Shown: positions 1 to 53,301 of the stretch, piece after piece
How positions within the stretch are numbered: position 1 is the stretch's first letter
How the letters are laid out: each line of letters opens with the position of its first letter
Assembly: GCF_007859855.1 (NCBI RefSeq)
Contig: NZ_SJPK01000004.1
Location: 608,422 to 672,421, forward strand
Length of the DNA stretch: 64,000 nucleotides
Reading direction: 5' to 3'
Source: Allorhodopirellula solitaria
Lineage (GTDB): Bacteria; Planctomycetota; Planctomycetia; Pirellulales; Pirellulaceae
Position numbers and translations under genes: made by a program
The notes under the pieces: generated by a model
The model's database searches: none
What the model was told of the DNA's origin: nothing
Seen by the model: only the letters and a program-made list of their open reading frames with translations

Positions 1-122
1 TACTTCAATCACGGCGTCACAAATGCTCTTTCAGAAGGATTCAACAGCAAAATTCAGTCGATCAAATCCGCCGTCCGGCGGTTTCGTTCGTTCAAGAACT
101 ACCACCTGAGAATCTTATTTTG
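1..122 (+). pseudogene. ISL3-family transposase, C-terminal fragment
   Basis: Reading frame 1 from the first base gives a typical ISL3 (DDE_Tnp_ISL3) transposase end: the NALSEGFNSKIQSIK stretch followed by FRSFKNYHLRILFW. In this family the glutamate of the SEG motif is the last acidic catalytic residue. The gene begins left of the window. After ILFW the frame runs straight into a MITE end (from 123), so the native C-terminus is lost and the frame continues into unrelated sequence as far as about 325. I read it as a transposase interrupted by a MITE. The left part is not visible, so whether the copy was otherwise intact is unknown. Confidence 0.75.
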
Positions 123-171
123 GGTTCATCCGGCGGAAGCGTGCGCAGAGCACAGCGGAAGTTTTTTTGAG
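123..171 (-). mobile_element. Truncated end of the 318-bp ISL3-type MITE
   Basis: The 49 bases from GGTTCATCC to TTTTTTTGAG match the reverse complement of the right end of the elements at 6288-6605 and 11582-11899 with one visible mismatch in the TIR (CCGGCGG for CCGACGG). Homology stops sharply after 171. It lies inside the ISL3 transposase tail. The opposite end is missing, so no target duplication can be checked. Confidence 0.8.
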
Positions 172-4488: not shown

Positions 4489-6017
4489 GACCCGACGTTG
4501 AGGCGTTGCAACATGCCGAGCAGCTTTTTGCTAAACGGTGTTAACCTCGTGCGGCTAAACTGGTCACCTAGCTTGCGGATTGCTTCGGCCTGAGTTGGAT
4601 AGGGGTGAATGGCGCCGCCGATTTTTGATAGCCCCAGGCCACCCGTGATCGCGAGGGTCAGTTCGGAAATCATGTCACCCGCGTTCTCGGCGACAATCGT
4701 CGCACCAACGATCGTATCGGTTCCTTGTTTCGTGTGAACCTTGACGAAGCCTTCGTCTTTCCCTTCAAGGATCGCACGATCGACCTCGGCTAATTGCTGG
4801 ACGTAAGTGTCGATTTCGATCCCGGCGTCTTTCGCGTCACTTCCATACATACCAACGTGCGCGATCTCAGGAGAGGTAAACGTTGCCCACGGGATCACCA
4901 GTTCACTGGCTTTTTTCTTGCCAAACGGACCGAGGGCGAACAGAGCATTCTGGATCACGATGCGAGCTTGGAAATCCGCTGTATGAGTGAATTGGAATTT
5001 CGAACAGATGTCACCCGCCGCATAAATATTCGGATTGGTCGTTAGTAAATGATCGTTGACCTTCACACCCTTCTTATCAAAGTCGACTCCGACGGCGTCC
5101 AGGTTGAGATTTTCAACGTTCGGTGCTCTGCCGACCGCCACTAGCAATTGGTCGACGGGTTCGTCGTAGCTTTGGCCGTGCGAATCAACTGTCAGGCGAA
5201 TCCCCCCCCGGCTGTGAATCTTGAGTTTGCGACCACAACAAAGCAATTTGACTCCATCGCGTACCATCGCGTTTTGGACAAGCTCGGCCGCTTCACGATC
5301 TTCGCGAGGCATGATCCCGTGCTCCGATTCGACCAACAAAACTTCGCTGCCAAGCTGAGCGAACGACTGCGCCATTTCACAACCGATCGGACCGGCGCCA
5401 ATCACACCGAGTCGCTGAGGTAACTCGGTGAGCGAAAACACGGACTCATTGGTTAAGTAGTCGACGTCATCGAGCCCGTCGATTGGAGGCGCAGCTGCGC
5501 GAGCGCCGGAGGCGATCACGGCTCGTTTGAAGTCGAGCTTCGTTCCATCGACCTCGATGGTGCTCGAATCGACGAAGCTTGCTTGTCCAAAATACACGTC
5601 GACGCCCAAGTTACGAAATCGAGTTGCTGAATCGTTATCGCTGATACCCGCACGCAGTTTCCTCATTCGCTGCATCACGGAAGCAAAGTCGACATCCACA
5701 TCCGGCACGTTGACTCCGAACTCACTCGCTTTCTTCGCGTTCGCGGCCACGCGAGCAGCACTGATGATCCCCTTGGAAGGGACACAACCGACGTTCAGAC
5801 AATCGCCGCCCATTAGTTCTCGTTCGATCAACGCGACGCGTGCTCCCAGACCCGCTGCGCCCGCGGCGGCAACCAACCCTGCTGTACCAGCTCCAATCAC
5901 GACCAGGTGGTAGGGACGCCTCGGTGTTGGATTGGTCCACTCGGGCGGATGCACGTTCGCTTCAAGAGTTTGGTTGTGTTCGTCGTTGGGCTGGAGCTGG
6001 ATGAGATCAGATGTCAT
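4485..6017 (-). CDS. Mercuric-reductase-like flavoprotein disulfide reductase
   Basis: A 510-aa class I pyridine nucleotide-disulfide oxidoreductase. In order: FAD loop VIGAGTAGL near residue 41, redox disulfide GGDCLNVGCVPSK, NAD(P)H loop VIGAGPIGCEMA near 205, FAD motif IYAAGDIC near 335, and the dimer-interface motif HPYPTQAEA near 473. It lacks both the N-terminal HMA domain and the C-terminal vicinal cysteine pair that bind Hg(II) in true MerA, so mercury reduction is unlikely. Location beside ArsM and TVP38 genes suggests a thiol/quinone redox role in the same pathway. The ATG overlaps the stop of an upstream open frame by 11 bases and has no clear Shine-Dalgarno, suggesting coupling. 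The C-terminus ends inside a REP element. Confidence 0.8.
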   Translation of the reverse strand: MTSDLIQLQPNDEHNQTLEANVHPPEWTNPTPRRPYHLVVIGAGTAGLVAAAGAAGLGARVALIERELMGGDCLNVGCVPSKGIISAARVAANAKKASEFGVNVPDVDVDFASVMQRMRKLRAGISDNDSATRFRNLGVDVYFGQASFVDSSTIEVDGTKLDFKRAVIASGARAAAPPIDGLDDVDYLTNESVFSLTELPQRLGVIGAGPIGCEMAQSFAQLGSEVLLVESEHGIMPREDREAAELVQNAMVRDGVKLLCCGRKLKIHSRGGIRLTVDSHGQSYDEPVDQLLVAVGRAPNVENLNLDAVGVDFDKKGVKVNDHLLTTNPNIYAAGDICSKFQFTHTADFQARIVIQNALFALGPFGKKKASELVIPWATFTSPEIAHVGMYGSDAKDAGIEIDTYVQQLAEVDRAILEGKDEGFVKVHTKQGTDTIVGATIVAENAGDMISELTLAITGGLGLSKIGGAIHPYPTQAEAIRKLGDQFSRTRLTPFSKKLLGMLQRLNVGS

Positions 6018-6287
6018 TGAATATCAATTTGAGCGGGCGGTTGTTGGGTAGTTTGCTGTTATCGATGGTGAACGTGCGTGATACCGACTCAGCGCTGACG
6101 CGCCGGAAAACTGGTTGCCGAATCGACCCGCCAGTGAAAACACCCCGAGGGAGACCAACGCTGTTTGATTCACCGTCGTCGGCGGCGAATCTTTCCATCA
6201 GGGACTGCTCGAGCCTTCGATCGTGGACGCCACACAGGATGGTGTGCAGATACTTAACCGCGACAGAAACGCGTTGGGAATAATTGA
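6007..6287 (-). pseudogene. Possible gene remnant upstream of the MerA-like gene
   Basis: An open frame reads through about 93 residues (for example SVAVKYLHTILCGVHDRRLE) up to FNDI and a stop that overlaps the next start by 11 bases. It has no start codon of its own outside the adjacent MITE, whose insertion at 6288 would cut off the 5' part of any gene here. The end-to-start overlap and the absence of a ribosome binding site for the next gene favour a real, truncated cistron. I recognise no domain. It could also be a chance frame. Confidence 0.35.
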
Positions 6288-6605
6288 GGCTGATCCGACG
6301 GAAGCGTGCGCCCGAGGTTTTCAAGGCATGGCTCCAGTATCGAAGGATTTATTTTTGGGATGTGATTATCAATGTTAGACTGGCACTGCCGGGAGAAACG
6401 GAGCCGAGCTCTGCAGAGGTGCTGGCTTGGCAAGGGATATCTCGGTCGCCAGCGTTTCCCTGCAAAAGCGGTACGGCAATGGTGTTGTCGGTCCCTGGCG
6501 AGCGTTTGTTCGTCAGGGACGCATTTTTGAACGATCATTGGATACGAGAGCCATGCCTCAAAAAAACTTCCGCTGTGCTCTGCGCACGCTTCCGTCGGAT
6601 GAACC
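6288..6605 (+). mobile_element. 318-bp ISL3-type MITE, copy A, with 8-bp target duplication
   Basis: Ends are GGCTGATCCGACGGAAGCG on the left and, reverse-complemented, GGTTCATCCGACGGAAGCG on the right; the inverted similarity continues inward to GGCATGGCTC on both sides. It is flanked by a perfect direct repeat ATAATTGA (6280-6287 and 6606-6613). Eight-base duplications and GG-starting ends are typical of the ISL3 family. It differs from copy B at about ten positions. It encodes no transposase, so it needs one in trans. Inside, GTCCCTG and CAGGGAC (about 6490-6520) can pair as a hairpin. Long open frames cross it on both strands but match no protein I know. Confidence 0.88.
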
Positions 6606-6641
6606 ATAATTGACAGATTCTGTTCTCGGGCTCCAAGCTAC

Positions 6642-7652
6642 CTACTCATTGTGCCGATCTCCAATCGTCTTTCTCATCAAAACTAGGTTGTCGTGTACAA
6701 GACTCGATGACCAGATAAACTTCCCATCCGCTTTCGGATCGTCGAACAAGTCGGTGAAGTTTGTGTAGGCGGGTTTATTATCAACGCCGACAAATTCGTT
6801 CGTAAAGATCGCCGCGTTCGGCCAACCGCTATCGTCAAAGTCGACCGCGGCCCAATTTTTAGGAATTGGCCAGTGGGCAGCGAAGTGAGTGGTGCCGTCG
6901 TCAACGTCGTCGGTGCTACATCTCGAACTGTCTCGGAGAGATCCTTTCAGTACCAGGCAATCCTTTGTTTTCAGAGGCGCGGTGTAGAACGTTTGTGCCT
7001 TCCAGCTGGCGTCCGTCACGGCAATGGTCTCGCCAGCAGCGTCTTTCACAACCGCAACCAAACCGGCGTCACCTTGGTGAAAGGACGCACCTTTGAACTT
7101 TTCGAACCCCAACCCCAGACGTTCTTCCCAATCGACCCCCATGATTGCGATTGTCAACGGACGCTGCGCTCTGAACCGGATCACGCTACTGTTGAACGGT
7201 GTCATCGGGACAGGGTCGATTGCCAACAGTTCGCCGTTCACGTAGATCTCGAAGTAGTTGTCGCCGAAAACGTAGGCTGCAAAAAGCTCGTCTCCGCCAG
7301 CATCAATCACCGGAATCGACTCCAGATCCACGTCGGCAATTCCGGTTGGTTCGACTCCGTTTGCTTCGTTGTACAAGTCGGGGGCTTTCATGGCGGTTTG
7401 GAAATGCGTCTTGGCTGGCACCATCCACTCCCTGCCGTCTGGGGACGTGATTGTTCCAACGTTGGCCGTGCGTGGGTTGTTCCCCTTCCATTGGTAGAGC
7501 ATGGTGATGCCCGACTGAGCCTCGCCTTGGGTAAACGAAGGCTGCACGGACGTAGTGTCCGGTTGCTGAGCATCGGCAATTGGCTGAGCTACCCCAATCA
7601 TGCCGAGCAGTACAGCGGTTCCGGCCATAATAGAGAAACATAGTCGATTCAC
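6642..7652 (-). CDS. Secreted protein of unknown function
   Basis: 336 aa starting with an N-terminal signal peptide (hydrophobic AGTAVLLGMIGVAQPIADAQ, cleavage likely after ADA). The start is GTG with an AGG Shine-Dalgarno upstream. The mature part looks all-beta, with repeated segments such as FEIYVNGELLAIDP and WAAVDFDDSGWPNA that resemble galactose-binding or jelly-roll domains of secreted glycosidases, and it ends FIWSSSLVHDNLVLMRK. Catalytic residues cannot be assigned. It lies 74 bases downstream of the TVP38 gene on the same strand and is likely in one transcript with it. Its 3' side was hit by MITE A. Periplasmic location follows from the signal peptide; function is unknown. Confidence 0.65.
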   Translation of the reverse strand: MNRLCFSIMAGTAVLLGMIGVAQPIADAQQPDTTSVQPSFTQGEAQSGITMLYQWKGNNPRTANVGTITSPDGREWMVPAKTHFQTAMKAPDLYNEANGVEPTGIADVDLESIPVIDAGGDELFAAYVFGDNYFEIYVNGELLAIDPVPMTPFNSSVIRFRAQRPLTIAIMGVDWEERLGLGFEKFKGASFHQGDAGLVAVVKDAAGETIAVTDASWKAQTFYTAPLKTKDCLVLKGSLRDSSRCSTDDVDDGTTHFAAHWPIPKNWAAVDFDDSGWPNAAIFTNEFVGVDNKPAYTNFTDLFDDPKADGKFIWSSSLVHDNLVLMRKTIGDRHNE

Positions 7653-7725
7653 GGATTGAGCCTCATGGACAATTCAAGTTGCGGAGAGTTTTAAGCAGCT
7701 TCCCATCTAGTGAATTCAGGGAAGC

Positions 7726-8877
7726 TCAGGCACTTTGGCATAAGATGACCAACGAGACCATGATACCGTCAGTCAGCCGCTGCCGTGGAATCGCCGGTTC
7801 GCAACGGAGTGCCGTGTGATCGACGGACGGGCCAGCGGGAATGGCCGCGTCGGTCTTCTTCATGGCGACTTTCGGAGGCTCAAACGTGCTGGTGAGCGAC
7901 CGCTCAATTTGCTCTGCACGCAGAGAGACAAAGACTGCTGCGGCGACAGCGGCAACCGCTAGGCCGGCAAGCAACAGCGTCCCGCGAACGCTCGATTGGG
8001 GCGCGGGCTCTTGGGAAGCCGCAGAGGTCTCATTGCTCTGCGATGGTTCATCGACTTGTTCGTTGAGTTTCCGCCCCGCCAAGCGTGTTACGTAAACAGT
8101 CACGATAACCGTTGCCACTAAACCGACCGCAAGCATCGCCCACTCCGCAGTCGAACGTTGGCGATCGGCGCCGACCGCTACACCGGTGACGTGACCGAGG
8201 TAAACGTATAGAAACGTACCCGGAAGCATCGCTATCCAACTGGTCAATGCGTAGGGCCAAAATCGCACGGGCGTCAGGCCGTAAAGATAGTTTTGCACGT
8301 TGAACGGGATAGCGGGTGACAGTCGCAATAGCCCGACGATTTTCCACCCACCCTCCGCGATCGCGCGGTCGATCGCGCCGAATCGCCGATTTCTCTTCGC
8401 CATCGCCGCGACCTTGTCTCTGGCCGCGTAGCGTGCGATCAAGAACGCGAGCGACGCGCCGATTGTCGATCCGGCTGAAACGATTACCGTACCGAGTCCG
8501 AGACCAAATATGGCTCCAGCGACAAGCGTGAGAATGGTTCCCGGGACAAACAAGACGGTCGCCACGATGTACAGCAGCACCAGAACAACTGGTCCCCAAT
8601 ACCCCAGTCCACCAATCCAATCCTTCGCCGCTGACATGGCTTGGTCAAACGGCAGCGAACCGATGATCGCCAAGAGTGCAGCTAGAATGCACAAGATCGA
8701 CACCCAGCGGATGACCGATAAAGCTCTGTTGGGACCTGGGTCGCTGCGTCGTTGCGTTCGCTGCCCGGCGGCGTCACTGGCCGGCGAGCTGATCGGGTCG
8801 TCGATTGTTTCCACGCCGGTAGCCTTTGGATTGCGGGGATTGGCAGCTTGGGAGCCACCGTCTTGTTGTCGTATCAA
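7726..8877 (-). CDS. TVP38/TMEM64 (VTT/DedA-like) membrane protein
   Basis: An inner-membrane protein of up to 383 aa. After a polar N-terminus come a first transmembrane helix (about residues 55-75) and the VTT core: LFVPGTILTLVAGAIFGLGLGTVIVSAGSTIGASLAFLIAR in sequence terms, with the family hallmark F-V-P-G and G-x-x-x-G segments, then LRLSPAIPFNVQNYLYGLTPV, the conserved R-x-x-P-x-x-P-F stretch. An unusual extra C-terminal region of about 130 residues adds one more helix and a tail. The start is probably TTG at 8877, with a GTG about 20 residues later as alternative. TVP38 proteins sit beside ArsM or fused to MerA-like oxidoreductases in other bacteria, matching this context. Its transported substrate is unknown. 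Confidence 0.8.
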   Translation of the reverse strand: MIRQQDGGSQAANPRNPKATGVETIDDPISSPASDAAGQRTQRRSDPGPNRALSVIRWVSILCILAALLAIIGSLPFDQAMSAAKDWIGGLGYWGPVVLVLLYIVATVLFVPGTILTLVAGAIFGLGLGTVIVSAGSTIGASLAFLIARYAARDKVAAMAKRNRRFGAIDRAIAEGGWKIVGLLRLSPAIPFNVQNYLYGLTPVRFWPYALTSWIAMLPGTFLYVYLGHVTGVAVGADRQRSTAEWAMLAVGLVATVIVTVYVTRLAGRKLNEQVDEPSQSNETSAASQEPAPQSSVRGTLLLAGLAVAAVAAAVFVSLRAEQIERSLTSTFEPPKVAMKKTDAAIPAGPSVDHTALRCEPAIPRQRLTDGIMVSLVILCQSA

Positions 8878-9119
8878 GATGACGCTGACGTCGCGTTGTC
8901 CTTACAGAACTTTCTAACGCAGTGACACTTGAATACGTCGATGTAATGGAAACGACGGTGTTGGTCAGGCCAATACTGAACAGATGCTGCGACTCGATTG
9001 AATCGTTGCTCATGCTCAGCAGTGTCAACGTTACCAGAATCAAATGTTGCCAGGAGAGCAGACAGAATGCAGACGATCATCCCGTCTGGACCATCCATTG
9101 GGAACCGCCTAAGCCGACT

Positions 9120-9380
9120 TCACGAACCCTGTGAGTCCATCGCTTTCGTAATTCTCTGCTTCGCGGCGGCGGACAACGTCACCTCTTGGGGCATTTCTTT
9201 ACCAGACTCGCGACTCACCTCCTGCGCGATTCGTTCTTTGAGCAGAATCTGATCACGACGAAACGCAGAGCAAAGCCGACACATCTGCAAGTGCATCCAA
9301 ACGATAATCCGCTTGCTTGGCGGCAAGGGACGGTCGAGCGACTTGGACACGAGCTTGGTAATTTCTTTGCATGACAACAT
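9120..9380 (-). CDS. Putative zinc-finger anti-sigma factor
   Basis: 86 aa with a ZAS/zf-HC2-type arrangement: Cys4, then His30, Cys34 and Cys37 in the string HLQMCRLC. It has no transmembrane segment, so it would be a cytoplasmic, possibly redox-responsive, anti-sigma like RsrA rather than a membrane sensor. It begins 15 bases after the ECF sigma gene, the usual order for a sigma/anti-sigma pair, and is presumably co-transcribed and coupled to it. Metal release from the C-x2-C motif by oxidants would fit the neighbouring superoxide dismutase and redox genes; that link is inference. Confidence 0.72.
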   Translation of the reverse strand: MLSCKEITKLVSKSLDRPLPPSKRIIVWMHLQMCRLCSAFRRDQILLKERIAQEVSRESGKEMPQEVTLSAAAKQRITKAMDSQGS

Positions 9381-9395
9381 GACGGCGTAGTCCGG

Positions 9396-9995
9396 TTATG
9401 CTTTTTCCTGGAGCCAATGCCGTTTCATGCAGTTGGCGAGACTGAGGCGTGCACGATGCAGAAGCACCCACAAATTAGACGCACTGATCTCCAACTCCTT
9501 ACAAATTTCGCCCGAGTCCAGATCCTCCATTTCTCGAAGCATGAACGCGCTCGACTGCCGCTCGGGCAGAGATTTCAAACAGGCGTGAAAGATAGGCCAA
9601 AACTCCTGGCGGTCGACTGAATCCAGTGGTTCCAGCAGCGTTTCGCGAACGTTCTGCTTCCATTTGCCGCTACTGTCGAAAAACGAGTCCAGTGAATCCC
9701 GTGTATCCAGCGTTTCCGCCCGCGCCGCCGGTTGGGCCGATCGATCACGTTGCCGGACAAAGTCGATGATTTTGCGCTTCAAAATACCCATCAGCCAGCC
9801 TTGCTGCGAGCCAGCACCGGAGAACTGGTGTCGATGCTGGATGCCGGCCAAAAAAGTCTGCTGCACCACTTCCTCGGCAGATTCCGGTTTGCGCAGCCGC
9901 GAGAGAGCATAGCGAAAAAGAGCGTCGCCATAGGTGTCTACCCAAGTCGCGGGGTCGCGGTTCTGGTCGGCCTTGGTCAATTCGGATCGTTCCAT
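9396..9995 (-). CDS. ECF-type RNA polymerase sigma factor
   Basis: 199 aa with both ECF regions. Region 2 includes YALSRLRKPESAEEVVQQTF and the -10 recognition helix QGWLMGILKRKIIDFVRQR; region 4 includes LPERQSSAFMLREMEDLDSGE followed by EISASNLWVLLHRARLSLAN, the -35 helix-turn-helix. The length is normal. The ATG at 9995 follows a leader carrying a perfect palindrome (10051-10074). The small zinc-finger anti-sigma follows at once. The regulon is not deducible from the sequence; neighbouring SOD and arsenic-type genes suggest oxidative or metalloid stress. Confidence 0.88.
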   Translation of the reverse strand: MERSELTKADQNRDPATWVDTYGDALFRYALSRLRKPESAEEVVQQTFLAGIQHRHQFSGAGSQQGWLMGILKRKIIDFVRQRDRSAQPAARAETLDTRDSLDSFFDSSGKWKQNVRETLLEPLDSVDRQEFWPIFHACLKSLPERQSSAFMLREMEDLDSGEICKELEISASNLWVLLHRARLSLANCMKRHWLQEKA

Positions 9996-10050
9996 TCAGT
10001 TCCAGACGCACAGAAAGAGGTGCCGTTGAGTCTACCAGAACTCGCTTCAG

Positions 10051-10074
10051 CGATTGTGAGTCATCTCACAATCG
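10051..10074. promoter_or_regulatory. Perfect 10-bp palindrome upstream of the ECF sigma gene
   Basis: CGATTGTGAG, four bases (TCAT), then CTCACAATCG: a 10-bp inverted repeat without mismatch, 56 bases upstream of the sigma start codon. Position and symmetry suggest a repressor/activator operator or a leader hairpin; it has no following T-run, so an intrinsic terminator is unlikely. The TTGTGAG...CTCACAA core recalls LacI/GalR-type operators, but no such regulator lies in the window. Confidence 0.6.
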
Positions 10075-10197
10075 GGGCCGATCGGCGTACCTCCAATGAT
10101 CTCTGAGCGTGAACGGGACGACCACATCGCTGTGGTGGAATTGTTTGGAATCACCTAGCCGACTACAGGGCAGATCGAGCGATTCGAAAGAGATTCG

Positions 10198-10674
10198 CTA
10201 GAGTACCGCTTTTAGGTCCGGGATTTTGTCGATCAGGCGCCGAGCATTCGGATTGATGTCGATCGCTTTCCGGACTAGCTGCAAGGCTTGGGCGATCTTC
10301 CAATGTCGTGCTGCAACGCGAGCGAGCAACACATGGTACGCTGCGAGTTCGCACAAATTTTCCTGGTTGACTGCCAGAATATTCAATGCCTCTCGGTCGC
10401 GTTCCATTTCGATCAGGCACGTCGCCAAGTCCAACAGTACCACTTCGCGGCTCGGGTCGTCATCTGCCAATCGGTCTAGCAAATCGAGCGCCTCCGGCCA
10501 CCGGTTCAAATGCATCAATGCCGTGGCTTCGCAGTACATGATCTCGGACGTTCGCCGGTTTTGCATGTCGAGTGAATGCATCTCACGGAGTGCCGATGAG
10601 TAGCTCTCGCGGCGAAAATGGTTCGCAACGCGACGCATGACCGCGTTGACTTCGCGCCGTGGGTGCGTGCTCAT
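10198..10674 (-). CDS. TPR-repeat protein
   Basis: 158 aa, all helical, with at least three tetratricopeptide units, for example YCEATALMHLNRWPEALDLL and LLDLATCLIEMERDREALNI, the last being AQALQLVRKAIDINPNARRL. It starts with the ATG at 10674, which overlaps the SOD stop codon (ATGA), so it is translationally coupled to the dismutase; the longer frame to 10713 lies inside the SOD gene and is not used. TPR proteins act as scaffolds, and the partner here is not known. It has no signal peptide, so it is cytoplasmic. Confidence 0.78.
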   Translation of the reverse strand: MSTHPRREVNAVMRRVANHFRRESYSSALREMHSLDMQNRRTSEIMYCEATALMHLNRWPEALDLLDRLADDDPSREVVLLDLATCLIEMERDREALNILAVNQENLCELAAYHVLLARVAARHWKIAQALQLVRKAIDINPNARRLIDKIPDLKAVL

Positions 10675-11264
10675 GCGACTGCTCCGGCCAATCGCTCCGC
10701 GACGAAATCCCAATTTGTAACGTCCCAGAAACCGTCAACAAATTTCGGTCGTTCGTTCCGATAGTCGACGTAGTATGCATGCTCCCAGACATCCAAGGTA
10801 AGCAGCGGGGTTTGGTTGTGCTTCAGCGGCGTGTCCGCATTGCCCAGCGGCAAGATCGATAACTTGCCAGTCGGGTCAATCGCCAGCCAAGCCCACCCGG
10901 CACCAAACAGTGTCGTTGCCGCGGCCGAGAACTGTCGCTTGAACGAATCAAAGTCGCGAAAATCCCGGTCGATCAAGTCGGCAAGCGGTCCAGACGGACC
11001 CTGCGAAGCAGACGGTGTCATACAGTTCCAGAAGAATGCGTGATTCCATGCCTGCGCCGCATTGTTAAAAGTGCCGCCACTGCTAGCAATCACGACGTCC
11101 TCGAGAGATTCCTCCGAGAGTGGATCGTCCTCCAGTATCTTGTTCAGTTTCGTGAAATAACTGGCATGGTGTTTTTCGTAATGGTAACTCATCTGCTCCT
11201 CGGAGATGTACCCTTTCAGAGCGTCCATCGCGTAGGGAAGTGGCGGCTGTTGGAATGCGGGCAT
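10671..11264 (-). CDS. sodB: Superoxide dismutase, Fe type
   Basis: 197 aa, normal for Fe/Mn SODs, converting superoxide to oxygen and peroxide in the cytoplasm. The four metal ligands are visible: His in YHYEKHH, His in AWNHAFFW, and Asp and His in DVWEHAYYVDY. The stretch FNNAAQAWNHAFFWNCM, with glutamine before WNH, is the pattern of iron SODs. The start is the ATG of MPAFQQPPLPYAMDAL at 11264; an upstream in-frame extension to 11390 is not SOD-like. A paired dyad (11394-11434) lies 130-170 bases upstream. The next gene, a TPR protein, overlaps its stop codon. Confidence 0.93.
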   Translation of the reverse strand: MPAFQQPPLPYAMDALKGYISEEQMSYHYEKHHASYFTKLNKILEDDPLSEESLEDVVIASSGGTFNNAAQAWNHAFFWNCMTPSASQGPSGPLADLIDRDFRDFDSFKRQFSAAATTLFGAGWAWLAIDPTGKLSILPLGNADTPLKHNQTPLLTLDVWEHAYYVDYRNERPKFVDGFWDVTNWDFVAERLAGAVA

Positions 11265-11393
11265 GCTATTTTGACTCTTAGATTGTGCTGGTAAATGAAG
11301 CGCGACAACGATCCGGACTGCCTGCGAGGAATGATCGTGAAATTCCTCCCCGGCGAATCCAATGGGTCTCTTGGGACACGTCTCCTCCAAAGT

Positions 11394-11434
11394 GTAGCTG
11401 TAGCTACAGTCGCGTCAAGTGTAGCGTGTGCTAC
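11394..11434. promoter_or_regulatory. Two tandem GTAGC-N4-GCTAC dyads upstream of SOD
   Basis: GTAGC-TGTA-GCTAC at 11394-11407 and GTAGC-GTGT-GCTAC at 11421-11434. Both are preceded by AGT or GT, so the shared unit is GTGTAGC-N4-GCTAC. The centres are 27 bp apart, a little over two and a half helical turns. Located 130-170 bp upstream of the SOD start, they look like paired sites for a dimeric repressor, possibly BlaI/CopY-like or an iron/redox regulator. The regulator is inference only. Confidence 0.6.
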
Positions 11435-11581
11435 TTGTGGTGACCTGCGTGATCCAACATCCGTCGCACATTGGGACTGAAGATGGCCGCGATGCCTCTG
11501 GTCTGCTTGGCCGCCAAGTGGATTTCGATTCACGCCATTGAGCTATTGACCCTCGGCATGGCAGCGATCGTGATTCTTAAC

Positions 11582-11899
11582 GGCTCATCCGACGGAAGCG
11601 AGCGCCCGAGGTTTTCAAGGCATGGCTCCAGTATCCAAGGATTTATTTGTGGGATGTGATTATCAATGTTAGACTGGCCCTGCCGGGAGAAACGGAGCCG
11701 AGCTCTGCAGAGGTGCTGGCTTGGCAAGAGATAGCTCGGTCGCCAGCGTTTCCCTGCAAAAGCGGTACGCCAATGGTGTTGTCGGTCCCTGGCGAGCGTT
11801 TGTTCGTCAGGGACGCATTTTTGAACGATCATTGGATACTCGAGCCATGCCTCAAAAAACCTTCCGCTGTGCTCTGCGCACGCTTCCGTCGGATGAACC
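11582..11899 (+). mobile_element. 318-bp ISL3-type MITE, copy B
   Basis: Same length and orientation as copy A with about ten base differences (about 97% identical by eye). Ends are GGCTCATCCGACGGAAGCG on the left and, reverse-complemented, GGTTCATCCGACGGAAGCG on the right. The flanks (TTCTTAAC and TGCGCAAG) do not match, so this copy has lost its target duplication or one flank has been rearranged. It lies in the gap between the 3' end of the ATPase gene and the SOD promoter region. Confidence 0.87.
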
Positions 11900-11929
11900 T
11901 GCGCAAGGAGGTTCGCTTCGGCGCGACGT

Positions 11930-13048
11930 TTATCGACTCGGCCACTTCCAGCCGTACTGACTGAGCAGGTCGGCATCTTTCAATACCGTTTCGCCATCTT
12001 CTTTTTCCAGCCGGATGGAAACGCAGACGTCGTCTGCTTTTAACGCATCGACCAGTCTTTGATTGTGACTGACGACGATGATTTGGCTGTTTTCGGCCGC
12101 CAGCGTGATGAGCCGAGCGAGTGCGGGGATCAGATCAGGATGCAAACTATTCTCGGGTTCATTGAGCACCATCAGTTCGGGGGGACGCGGGGTCATCAAG
12201 GCCGCCACCAGCAAAAGAAAACGCAGTGTTCCGTCGGAAAGTTCACTCGCTGATAAATAGCGTCTCATTCCAGACTGCTCGAACATCAATTGCAGGCCAG
12301 CGTCAGTTGCGGCGACATCGATGCGCGATCCTGGAAAGGCATCCTCAATCGCTTGGGCGAGTCCACTTCGGTCGCCAATCTCACGAATCGTTTGAATCGC
12401 AGCAGCTAAATCTGCACCATCGCCCGACATGATCGGGGTAAAAGTTGCGACGCAGGGCCGACGTGCTGGCGAGTTCGCATCGACTCCGAAGGTGTCATAG
12501 AAGCGCCAGCTGCGAAGTGTCTCACGCATGATGATCAGCTCTGGGGCGGCGATCGGATCGGCGTATTCCGAGAGCATGCTGGCCTGACGCGGTAGAGCGA
12601 CATGGATGTCTTGCCACTTTCCTCGCTCGCCGCGGCACCGCAGCGTTGCTACGCGGCGGTCGGCACAAAGATTCTTGGCTTCCAGACCGATGCCGCGCCA
12701 CAAACACTCGCGTTTCAACTCAGGGTCACCGCGAAACATTGACTCACTCGGCGGTGGAAGACCGAGGTCGAGGCAATAACTCAGCGGATCGGCCGTCAGT
12801 CCCAGCCTGAGACTGACGGGCTCCTTTCCGCTCTTCTTGGGGCCCGCCCATCGCACCGAACCAAAACCGCCTTCCCGAGCGAGCGATTCGGCCAGTCGTC
12901 CTTCAGCGGCATCTGCGATCAGGCGTAAAGCTCGATACAGGTTCGACTTTCCTGACCCGTTCGCGCCGGTTACCACATTGAGTTGTCCAAGCTGCAGAAT
13001 GATCGAACGAATGGATCGATATCCGGAAATGGCGATGCGATCGATCAT
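11930..13048 (-). CDS. Predicted SMC/RecF-like AAA ATPase (COG4637 type)
   Basis: 372 aa. N-terminal IDRIAISGYRSIRSIILQLG and Walker A GANGSGKSN at about residue 33; then the ABC-type signature LSDGTLRFLLL, Walker B PELMVLNEPENSLHP and the H-loop VVSHNQRLVDAL. This arrangement (AAA_15/AAA_21) is shared with OLD, RloC-type and many housekeeping ATPases. There is no TOPRIM nuclease domain in the protein. This subgroup is usually stand-alone and of unknown role; some relatives belong to phage-defence modules, but no partner nuclease is adjacent. It is possibly co-transcribed with the unknown gene 97 bases upstream. MITE copy B lies 30 bases beyond its stop. Confidence 0.82.
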   Translation of the reverse strand: MIDRIAISGYRSIRSIILQLGQLNVVTGANGSGKSNLYRALRLIADAAEGRLAESLAREGGFGSVRWAGPKKSGKEPVSLRLGLTADPLSYCLDLGLPPPSESMFRGDPELKRECLWRGIGLEAKNLCADRRVATLRCRGERGKWQDIHVALPRQASMLSEYADPIAAPELIIMRETLRSWRFYDTFGVDANSPARRPCVATFTPIMSGDGADLAAAIQTIREIGDRSGLAQAIEDAFPGSRIDVAATDAGLQLMFEQSGMRRYLSASELSDGTLRFLLLVAALMTPRPPELMVLNEPENSLHPDLIPALARLITLAAENSQIIVVSHNQRLVDALKADDVCVSIRLEKEDGETVLKDADLLSQYGWKWPSR

Positions 13049-53019: not shown

Positions 53020-53301
53020 CCTGTCTCGCGATGTGCTGAAAACATGAAAGGGCGGTTCAGCTGTGTAATCGGAAGAAACCCCGCAGATGCAGTAGATTTC
53101 CTTTTTGGTGTTCGACTGTGCGGGCGAGGGGTAGTCCGACCGCCGTGAAACGCGGGAAAACCGTTCGGGTTGGATAGTTTGTAACGATTGCGTGGGATTT
53201 TCTAATGAGATGGTCTGTAGCGATCCGATGCTAAAACACATCGAAACTACCACAGCACGATGATGGCCGATGGCGATCGTCTGCGACTTTGGAATCTTTT
53301 C

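Follow-up and report, generated by a model that had tools for sequence, protein, structure and literature searches.

The DNA analysed here is a 64-kb stretch (the window, to which all unlabelled coordinates refer) of contig NZ_SJPK01000004.1 of the planctomycete Allorhodopirellula solitaria, and our subject is a miniature inverted-repeat transposable element (MITE) that occurs in it, together with a structured RNA predicted in the interior of that element. One copy of the MITE, designated copy A, spans 318 bp (6288-6605), has inverted repeats of 24 bp at its ends and is flanked by a perfect target duplication of 8 bp; in length, ends and flanks it is as the first-pass annotation had described it. 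A second full-length copy (copy B), a fragment of a further copy and the remnant of an ISL3 transposase lie in the same window:

6280..6287, no strand: left target duplication ATAATTGA
6288..6311, + strand: left terminal inverted repeat GGCTGATCCGACGGAAGCGTGCGC
6582..6605, - strand: right terminal inverted repeat GGTTCATCCGACGGAAGCGTGCGC (inward reading; complement of 6582-6605)
6606..6613, no strand: right target duplication ATAATTGA
11582..11899, + strand: copy B, second full-length MITE copy, 96.5% identical, without target duplication
123..171, - strand: right-end fragment of a further MITE copy, 49 bp, adjoining the ISL3 remnant
1..114, + strand: ISL3 transposase remnant, 3' part, of another ISL3 lineage and not the mobiliser

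Copy number and target duplications of the MITE

The host genome (G000; 6.8 Mb in 62 contigs) contains well over a hundred little-diverged copies or pieces of the MITE. A DNA search of G000 returned 237 candidates, of which 40 were scored, and all 40 were 97-100% identical over the full or near-full length. A 19-base pattern of the ends, with up to three mismatches allowed, matched 359 times in G000 (184 + 175) versus 13 times (7 + 6) for the reversed control. In an 864-kb sample composed of 40 evenly spaced 20-kb stretches and the window, 31 places carried MITE sequence, fragments and the halves of nested copies included, which would correspond to some 240 copies, fragments and halves across G000. 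Mean divergence from the consensus was 2.1% (range 0.3-7.5%) for the 42 copies of 317-321 bp, and a second subfamily of 300 bp (subfamily B) was 10.7% different from subfamily A. Across 60 genomes searched, the host included, MITE DNA was present in five, all within the genus.

The 8-bp duplication read at copy A recurred when the flanks of other copies were inspected. The repeat was exact in 26 of 62 distinct two-ended elements and matched at 7/8 positions in 13 more (39/62 with at most one mismatch), these 62 being a non-random set taken from the 30 best-scoring copies, 20 stretches of the end list, the 40 spaced 20-kb stretches and the window. None of the 62 had an exact in-register repeat of 4-7 or 9-12 bp, and in the remaining 23 (0-6/8 matching, copy B among them) the duplication was either lacking or decayed. 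As judged by eye, the target sites were A+T-rich in appearance. An empty site for copy A was sought in sister genomes, in which the flank matches were non-collinear around the site and no empty site was found. Consistent with its designation as a MITE, the element is short, lacks a transposase and has inverted ends, target duplications and many copies. The long open frames that the first-pass annotation had pointed out are real and lie in two phases: forward frame 3 was stop-free over at least 100 amino acids (aa) in 32/42 copies and reverse frame 2 in 30/42, and neither of the two long open frames of copy A had a family match in NCBIfam.

Some loci bear rearranged forms of the element. Palindromes of 30-34 bp that consist solely of two MITE ends were observed at L069 1084-1113 (flanked by a perfect 8-bp duplication), L078 5117-5150 and G000:C11:34040-34067, and are probably relics of internal deletions. 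At L062 506-2811, a 521-aa open frame, IS110 transposase-like by eye, lies between two MITE right ends.

Relationship of the MITE to ISL3 elements

It had been proposed that the MITE belongs with ISL3 and that the ISL3 transposase remnant in the window represents its likely mobilising enzyme. The first part of this proposal is supported by the 8-bp duplications and by the ends of ISL3 elements in a sister species, while the second had to be abandoned because the lineage of the remnant has different ends. A PF01610 search of G000 gave 14 ISL3 matches, and the reading of ends was confined to the main lineages (types GGTTCTTC..GGAATTTAGTGGC, plus one other): the ends were GGTTCTTCTCGGAATTTAGTGGCA at L031 and L032 and GGTTCTTCGGGGAATTTAGTGGC at L035, and a third lineage (L034, L039/L043) had other borders. 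Among the same-genome lineages whose ends were read, none carries the MITE ends. The window remnant at 1-114 (L036) groups with L035, at 94% identity, and the ends of that lineage, GGTTCTTCGGGGAATTTAGTGGC, resemble those of the MITE in the first few bases only; the remnant was therefore rejected as the mobiliser.

A matching element was found outside the host. An end-pattern search of four sister genomes identified end pairs 1336 bp apart in one sister species (G007), which has five intact 1336-bp ISL3 copies with the ends GGCTCATCCGACTAAAGCGTGCGC / GGCTCATCCGACTAAAGCGTACTTT. The first 25 bases of one of these copies (L080) are identical to the MITE consensus, and another (L079) matches it at 22/24. 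L079 has the target duplication CGAGAATA (8/8) and L080 one that matches at 7/8, and no target duplication was seen for L082 and L083. At the fifth copy (L081), the two flanking octamers match the flanks of other copies, L088 and L086, and such an exchange of octamers suggests that these copies recombined or were mis-joined or mis-assembled. The 421-aa transposase of the 1336-bp element matched Pfam DDE_Tnp_ISL3 (E 1.5e-74), HTH_Tnp_ISL3 and Zn_ribbon_ISL3 and scored above the NCBIfam transpos_ISL3 cut-off. Some match to it was present in 11 of the 13 genomes of the genus, mostly distant or partial, with close copies that were uninterrupted in G007 and G005 and interrupted in G008. G007 also has short derivatives of the 1336-bp element, one of 353 bp (L084) and one of 253 bp with two right ends (L085).

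Comparison of the ends thus classes the MITE as a non-autonomous ISL3-type transposon, its ends matching those of an intact ISL3 element of a sister species. It resembles ISL3 insertion sequences and their MITEs in its GG[CT]T-type ends, its 8-bp duplications and the ISL3 transposase in the matching full element, and it differs from ISL3 elements in that its autonomous partner was found only in other species. There may be papers on ISL3 MITEs of other organisms, perhaps including Microcystis. Mobilisation was most likely by an ISL3-type transposase, which would act in trans on the ends of the MITE. Two observations weigh against this assignment. One is that the matching transposase was not found in G000, where the search gave just a 53-aa fragment (57%) and lineages at 23-36%. 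The other is that at four of the 14 PF01610 loci (L033, L036, L041 and L042) a piece of the MITE directly adjoins the remnant of an ISL3 gene from a different lineage. We provisionally took these abutting pieces for insertions or fusions, because at L036 and L041 the MITE part is not placed as an outer end; an identical junction of MITE and ISL3 remnant recurs at these two loci. The partner would appear to have been lost from the MITE's own genome or to be unassembled in it. Contigs C2, C9, C13, C31 and C52 of G000 begin ~365 bp before an RNA core of the kind described below, which suggests that the assembly breaks at this repeat and that an autonomous element could hide in the gaps. Movement of the MITE by a transposase from a different family, likewise one with 8-bp duplications, would fit the missing match in its own genome, where the transposase search covered ISL3, but it is very improbable given that a complete ISL3 element with nearly identical ends exists in the same genus.

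A predicted structured RNA in the interior of the MITE

The first-pass annotation missed one feature of the interior of the MITE, which appears to carry a conserved structured RNA core common to unrelated transposons. The core was detected in both full-length copies by covariance models (R1 and R2, below), and copy A has the following features around it:

6386..6450, + strand: structured RNA core, copy A (model R2, 61.5 bits, E 1.2e-14)
11680..11744, + strand: RNA core, copy B (58.6 bits)
6376..6381, + strand: -10-like box TAGACT, offset -15 from the R1 core start
6491..6529, + strand: terminator-like hairpin GTCCCTGGCGAGCG..TTCGTCAGGGAC, then GCATTTTTG (T-run)
6316..6348, no strand: inner inverted repeat, left arm (GGTTTTCAAGGCATGGCTCC...)
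6534..6567, no strand: inner inverted repeat, right arm (...GAGCCATGCCTCAAAAAAAC)

The MITE folds far more stably than shuffled sequence (z -7.5 as DNA, -8.5 as RNA), and a block at element positions 100-163 is found again, facing either way with respect to the ends, in sister-genome elements that otherwise differ in sequence. A 20-sequence alignment (A1) was used to build R1, with L189 (a weak DNA match in apparent coding sequence) and L207 (loop deleted) left out beforehand. In alignment A4, of 57 sequences, the structure comprises stem P0 (5 bp), an internal loop UGAARCGGA / AGGRAUA, stem P1 (6 bp), a small internal loop and, innermost, a 4-bp stem with a four-base loop. Of 855 pair cells, 96.3% pair, and in 11/15 pairs both sides have changed. 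For covariation, the score was 0.584 versus 0.199 for shuffled alignments (0/500 reach it) and 0.04-0.114 for slid controls. A held-out set of 41 distinct sequences, derived from 8 left-out sequences and 37 pattern loci that were never in a model and aligned by fitting to the model, gave 95.7% of cells paired and a score of 0.680 versus 0.162 shuffled and at most 0.131 slid; 10 pairs in this set changed on both sides, which is no excess over shuffles (355/500 reach 10). When the column pairs of A4 are ranked by mutual information, seven of the top eight belong to the structure; the remaining one (13/51) spans the internal loop and shows an A/G-G/A swap (38 AG, 18 GA and 1 GG; 56/57). The excess of G-U cells (44) over A-C/C-A cells (18) in A4 indicates that the strand given is the RNA strand.

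Several candidates were rejected. A further hairpin within the core, P2, was dropped, as 68.3% of its cells paired in A1 and sequences from across the order place some of its bases in P0. An R2 match at window 53066-53144 (E 0.55) was taken as chance. No Rfam 15 match covers the core in searches of window 6000-12200 and 6250-6640 and of 23 loci at 22 places (E up to 1 or 5); naRNA4, which touches the last bases of the core and the hairpin region (E 0.55, 18.3 bits versus a gathering score of 59.5), and HOTAIR_2, ncS011 and sR32 were considered chance matches.

Supporting the prediction of an RNA gene was the arrangement of the sequences on either side of the core. TAnnnT occurs at offset -15 in 28/53 RNA loci, and at any other offset from -45 to -6 in 0-4. 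A terminator-like hairpin lies downstream in 40/48 loci, versus 3.6 in shuffled sequence, 9 on the other strand and 10 upstream. An ATGCCT-AAAA motif follows the RNA in 27/47 loci versus 0 shuffled, and in copy A it falls in the region of the right inner arm; sequences similar to the left inner arm adjoin the RNA in other transposons. Comparison of the loci thus shows three parts in the MITE interior: a -10-like box, a terminator-like hairpin and, between them, a 64-nt core whose stems covary and whose internal loop is conserved. Copy A retains all of these putative RNA-gene parts (box, core, hairpin and T-run), and the RNA would be transcribed from its own promoter.

R1 matches were found in 53 of 296 genomes drawn from the order, representing 38/122 genera, and the RNA was present in 23 of 294 from the wider phylum and in 7 of 13 from the genus, the host being included in each count. 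At least 138 copies are present in G000 (138/150 scored candidates), 14 in G007, 13 in G002 and 1-3 each in G004, G009, G010 and G012. The core was not found in the five ISL3 copies of G007 or in one locus of G005. An exact degenerate pattern, which left open the P0 columns, three 3'-side P1 columns and nearly the whole 5' strand of P1, matched at least 117 stretches in named genomes. R1 matched 80/80 of the listed pattern loci and R2 the other 37/37, although a match in the loop letters is expected in loci that were chosen by the pattern. The record titles among the matches listed named Planctomycetota, Desulfobacterota-type deltaproteobacteria, Bacteroidota, Magnetococcales, Lentisphaerae, Kiritimatiellae, Verrucomicrobia, Calditrichota, Neomarinimicrobiota and Alphaproteobacteria. 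It is important to note that most of these records are metagenome bins, in which contamination is possible. Isolates are also present, and among the matches listed they include Stieleria tagensis, Belliella aquatica, Echinicola salinicaeni, Parapedobacter tibetensis, Cognataquiflexum nitidum, Desulfosarcina alkanivorans and NaphS2. Two RNA queries of a plasmid collection returned the same single record.

At six loci (L041, L059, L061, L070, L076 and L142) the RNA core is split at GAGCTC by a sequence with the ends TAAGTCCACGCCATTCG, which were read at L061 as an inverted repeat. The composite at L061, of 634 bp, is flanked by an 8-bp duplication of its own and thus seems to have moved as one unit.

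Carriers of the RNA and its possible role

To describe the surroundings of the RNA, a context set of 74 loci was assembled from 29/30 loci of the order draw and 45/80 listed pattern loci (near-identical and end-cut ones mostly omitted), not all of which are independent. From the vicinity of the RNA we took the longest convergent open reading frame (ORF) with a length of 140 aa or more, which gave 54 distinct ORFs, and 50 of these were scanned. Pfam identified 29/50 as transposases: 13 IS3-like, 8 IS110, 5 IS21, and one each of IS256, IS1182-like and IS66/mutator-like types. NCBIfam added L247 (ISNCY), L256, L274 and L318 (IS256 variant), for a total of 33/50, and placed L316 near IS1249/IS256. 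In all three cases with borders read, the RNA lies inside the repeated unit. The unit in G314 measures 3472 bp, includes IS3-type genes and has the RNA ~150 bp in from its left end, three of the four copies compared being 99.7-99.9% identical when compared whole and the fourth over part. The unit in NaphS2, of 3.2 kb, has the RNA 313 bp in from its right end and is whole in 2/10 loci, the others being cut by contig ends or an insertion; in one of the ten copies (L317), a ~1.8-kb insertion with a 9-bp overlap lies ~130 bp after the RNA core. Belliella and Cognataquiflexum share a 1.54-kb IS3 unit (85%) with the RNA 94 bp from its left end. Short multi-copy elements with the RNA also occur in another family of the order, with two copies each looked at in two genomes: one of 389 bp in G248 (left end GGYTCATCCGCCTGA) and one of ~350 bp in G240 (its right end reads GGTTCATCCGACTGAAGAGTGCGCGG at L372 and GGTACATCC.. 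at L371), the ends of both resembling those of the MITE. Taken together, these comparisons place relatives of the core beside or inside unrelated transposons in several phyla.

We consider it likely that the element is an ISL3-type MITE whose interior holds an RNA gene that is also borne by unrelated transposons. That the RNA is present beside unrelated transposons speaks against a function bound to a single transposase, and the promoter-like box at a fixed distance, the terminator and the conserved internal loop speak for an RNA with an action of its own; jointly they favour a trans-acting RNA with a host partner. We tentatively suggest, as a possibility somewhat short of an even chance, that the RNA may act in trans on a host component independent of the transposase family. 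It may be kept because it is helpful to its carriers, for instance if it adjusts the expression of the transposase or the tolerance of the host. Whether the RNA represents an uncatalogued class of transposon-borne genes across many phyla that acts in trans on a host component and favours its carriers (IS3, IS21, IS110, IS256-type and other elements, and ISL3 MITEs) is close to evenly balanced, leaning slightly towards doubt. Selection on the RNA between the MITE subfamilies is suggested by the differences between A and B, which affect 2/66 sites of the core versus 26/160 of the rest of the interior (Fisher P 0.0065).

Several points count against an RNA gene shared among transposons. The gene is a prediction from sequence comparison, and among the 42 copies the core was not significantly less mutated than the remainder of the element (P 0.06; 0.21 without shared polymorphisms). 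Eight of 65 non-redundant sequences, of uneven length, were excluded from A4, all of which match R2. As for the context, transposases account for 33/50 of the scanned convergent ORFs, a raw share taken at the RNA loci alone; the other 17 are not transposases and include fucosidase, cytochrome c peroxidase, POR and URO-D proteins as well as proteins without a family. In addition, the RNA is codirectional with, and after, an IS110 gene in an Acidobacteriota plasmid, and it follows AAA_22 ATPase genes on the same strand at five Desulfobacterota loci (5/10 hand-picked upstream ORFs), so that convergence to a transposase is a tendency and not a rule.

Three other explanations for the conserved interior were weighed. 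The unit could act in cis at transposon ends as a terminator or insulator that keeps transcription from entering or leaving the transposase gene, in which case the 64-nt core would be just its 5' part. The frequency of the terminator-like hairpin (40/48 loci) and the position of the RNA at or after the 3' ends of transposase genes agree with this, but a terminator requires no promoter-like box at a fixed offset, no conserved internal loop and no A/G swap, and MITEs that lack a transposase retain the unit; we regard a cis role as unlikely. It is likewise doubtful that the RNA unit is the primary mobile element and hops among ISL3, IS3, IS21 and IS110 vehicles. Similar flanks (GGTTTTnnAGGCATG / CATGCCTnnAAAACC) are found beside several unrelated transposases, and the downstream ATGCCT-AAAA motif (27/47 versus 0) could mark such a unit, but neither a duplication nor an empty site was demonstrated at its own borders, and several IS3 and IS21 cases have transposase-side sequence in place of one of the two flanks. 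Improbable, finally, is an ordinary MITE without functional cargo, its interior conserved through shared ancestry of one transposon family: the ends and duplications are typical of a MITE and selection is not detectable among the 42 copies, but covariation in two sequence sets is hard to explain through ancestry alone, the core adjoins transposons of unrelated families, and the subfamily differences spare it (2/66 versus 26/160, P 0.0065).

With an RNA gene borne by several kinds of transposon thus favoured, the element can be set beside known systems. The IS110 bridge RNA and the guide RNAs of IS605/IS607 are structured RNAs encoded in transposons, as the present RNA is predicted to be, but each is known from one transposase type and the present RNA is common to several unrelated families. 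In Coxiella burnetii, QMITE1/QMITE2 have been reported as the source of the small RNAs Cbsr3, Cbsr13 and Cbsr16 (PMC10969869), so that a MITE giving rise to small RNAs would have a parallel there; by description, the core predicted here differs in its conservation far beyond the MITE, beside transposons of other families and in other phyla. The words ISL3 and planctomycete are absent from the main text of that review of prokaryotic MITEs. A 2010 survey (Weinberg, PMC2864571) lists the motifs 'Rhodopirellula-1' and 'Transposase-resistance' without Rfam numbers and marks them as ambiguous as RNA and probably cis-regulatory. Their names, taxa (Proteobacteria and Planctomycetes; several phyla) and missing Rfam numbers would fit the present RNA, and on the names and descriptions given there we consider identity with one of them somewhat unlikely, though it deserves to be kept in mind. 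Among the titles and abstract openings listed by a literature search, with subscription papers outside its scope, none describes the MITE or the RNA. The MITE is a new member of a known element type, and the RNA, which has no match in Rfam 15 and is defined by two covariance models and more than 100 loci, would constitute a new Rfam-type family unless it is identical to one of the two unregistered motifs. MITEs are usually regarded as empty carriers, and on the present reading this one would be a vehicle whose amplification has multiplied an RNA gene; if that is true, one planctomycete MITE has amplified the RNA to at least 138 copies in a single genome, and the question arises as to what a common RNA offers elements with different transposases.

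Among further carriers, a second MITE family with the same RNA core was observed in G007 (L195, L197, L201, L203, L205 and L209). It has the ends GGTCCATCCGGG.. and, at L203, the 8-bp duplication GAAAAATC, and at L209/L045 a copy of it is nested in a relative of the window's MITE. At L239 (G059), repeats resembling CRISPR-DR9, below the gathering score, lie upstream of the RNA core, and a group II intron (Rfam, 1681-1906) lies ~120 bp after it.
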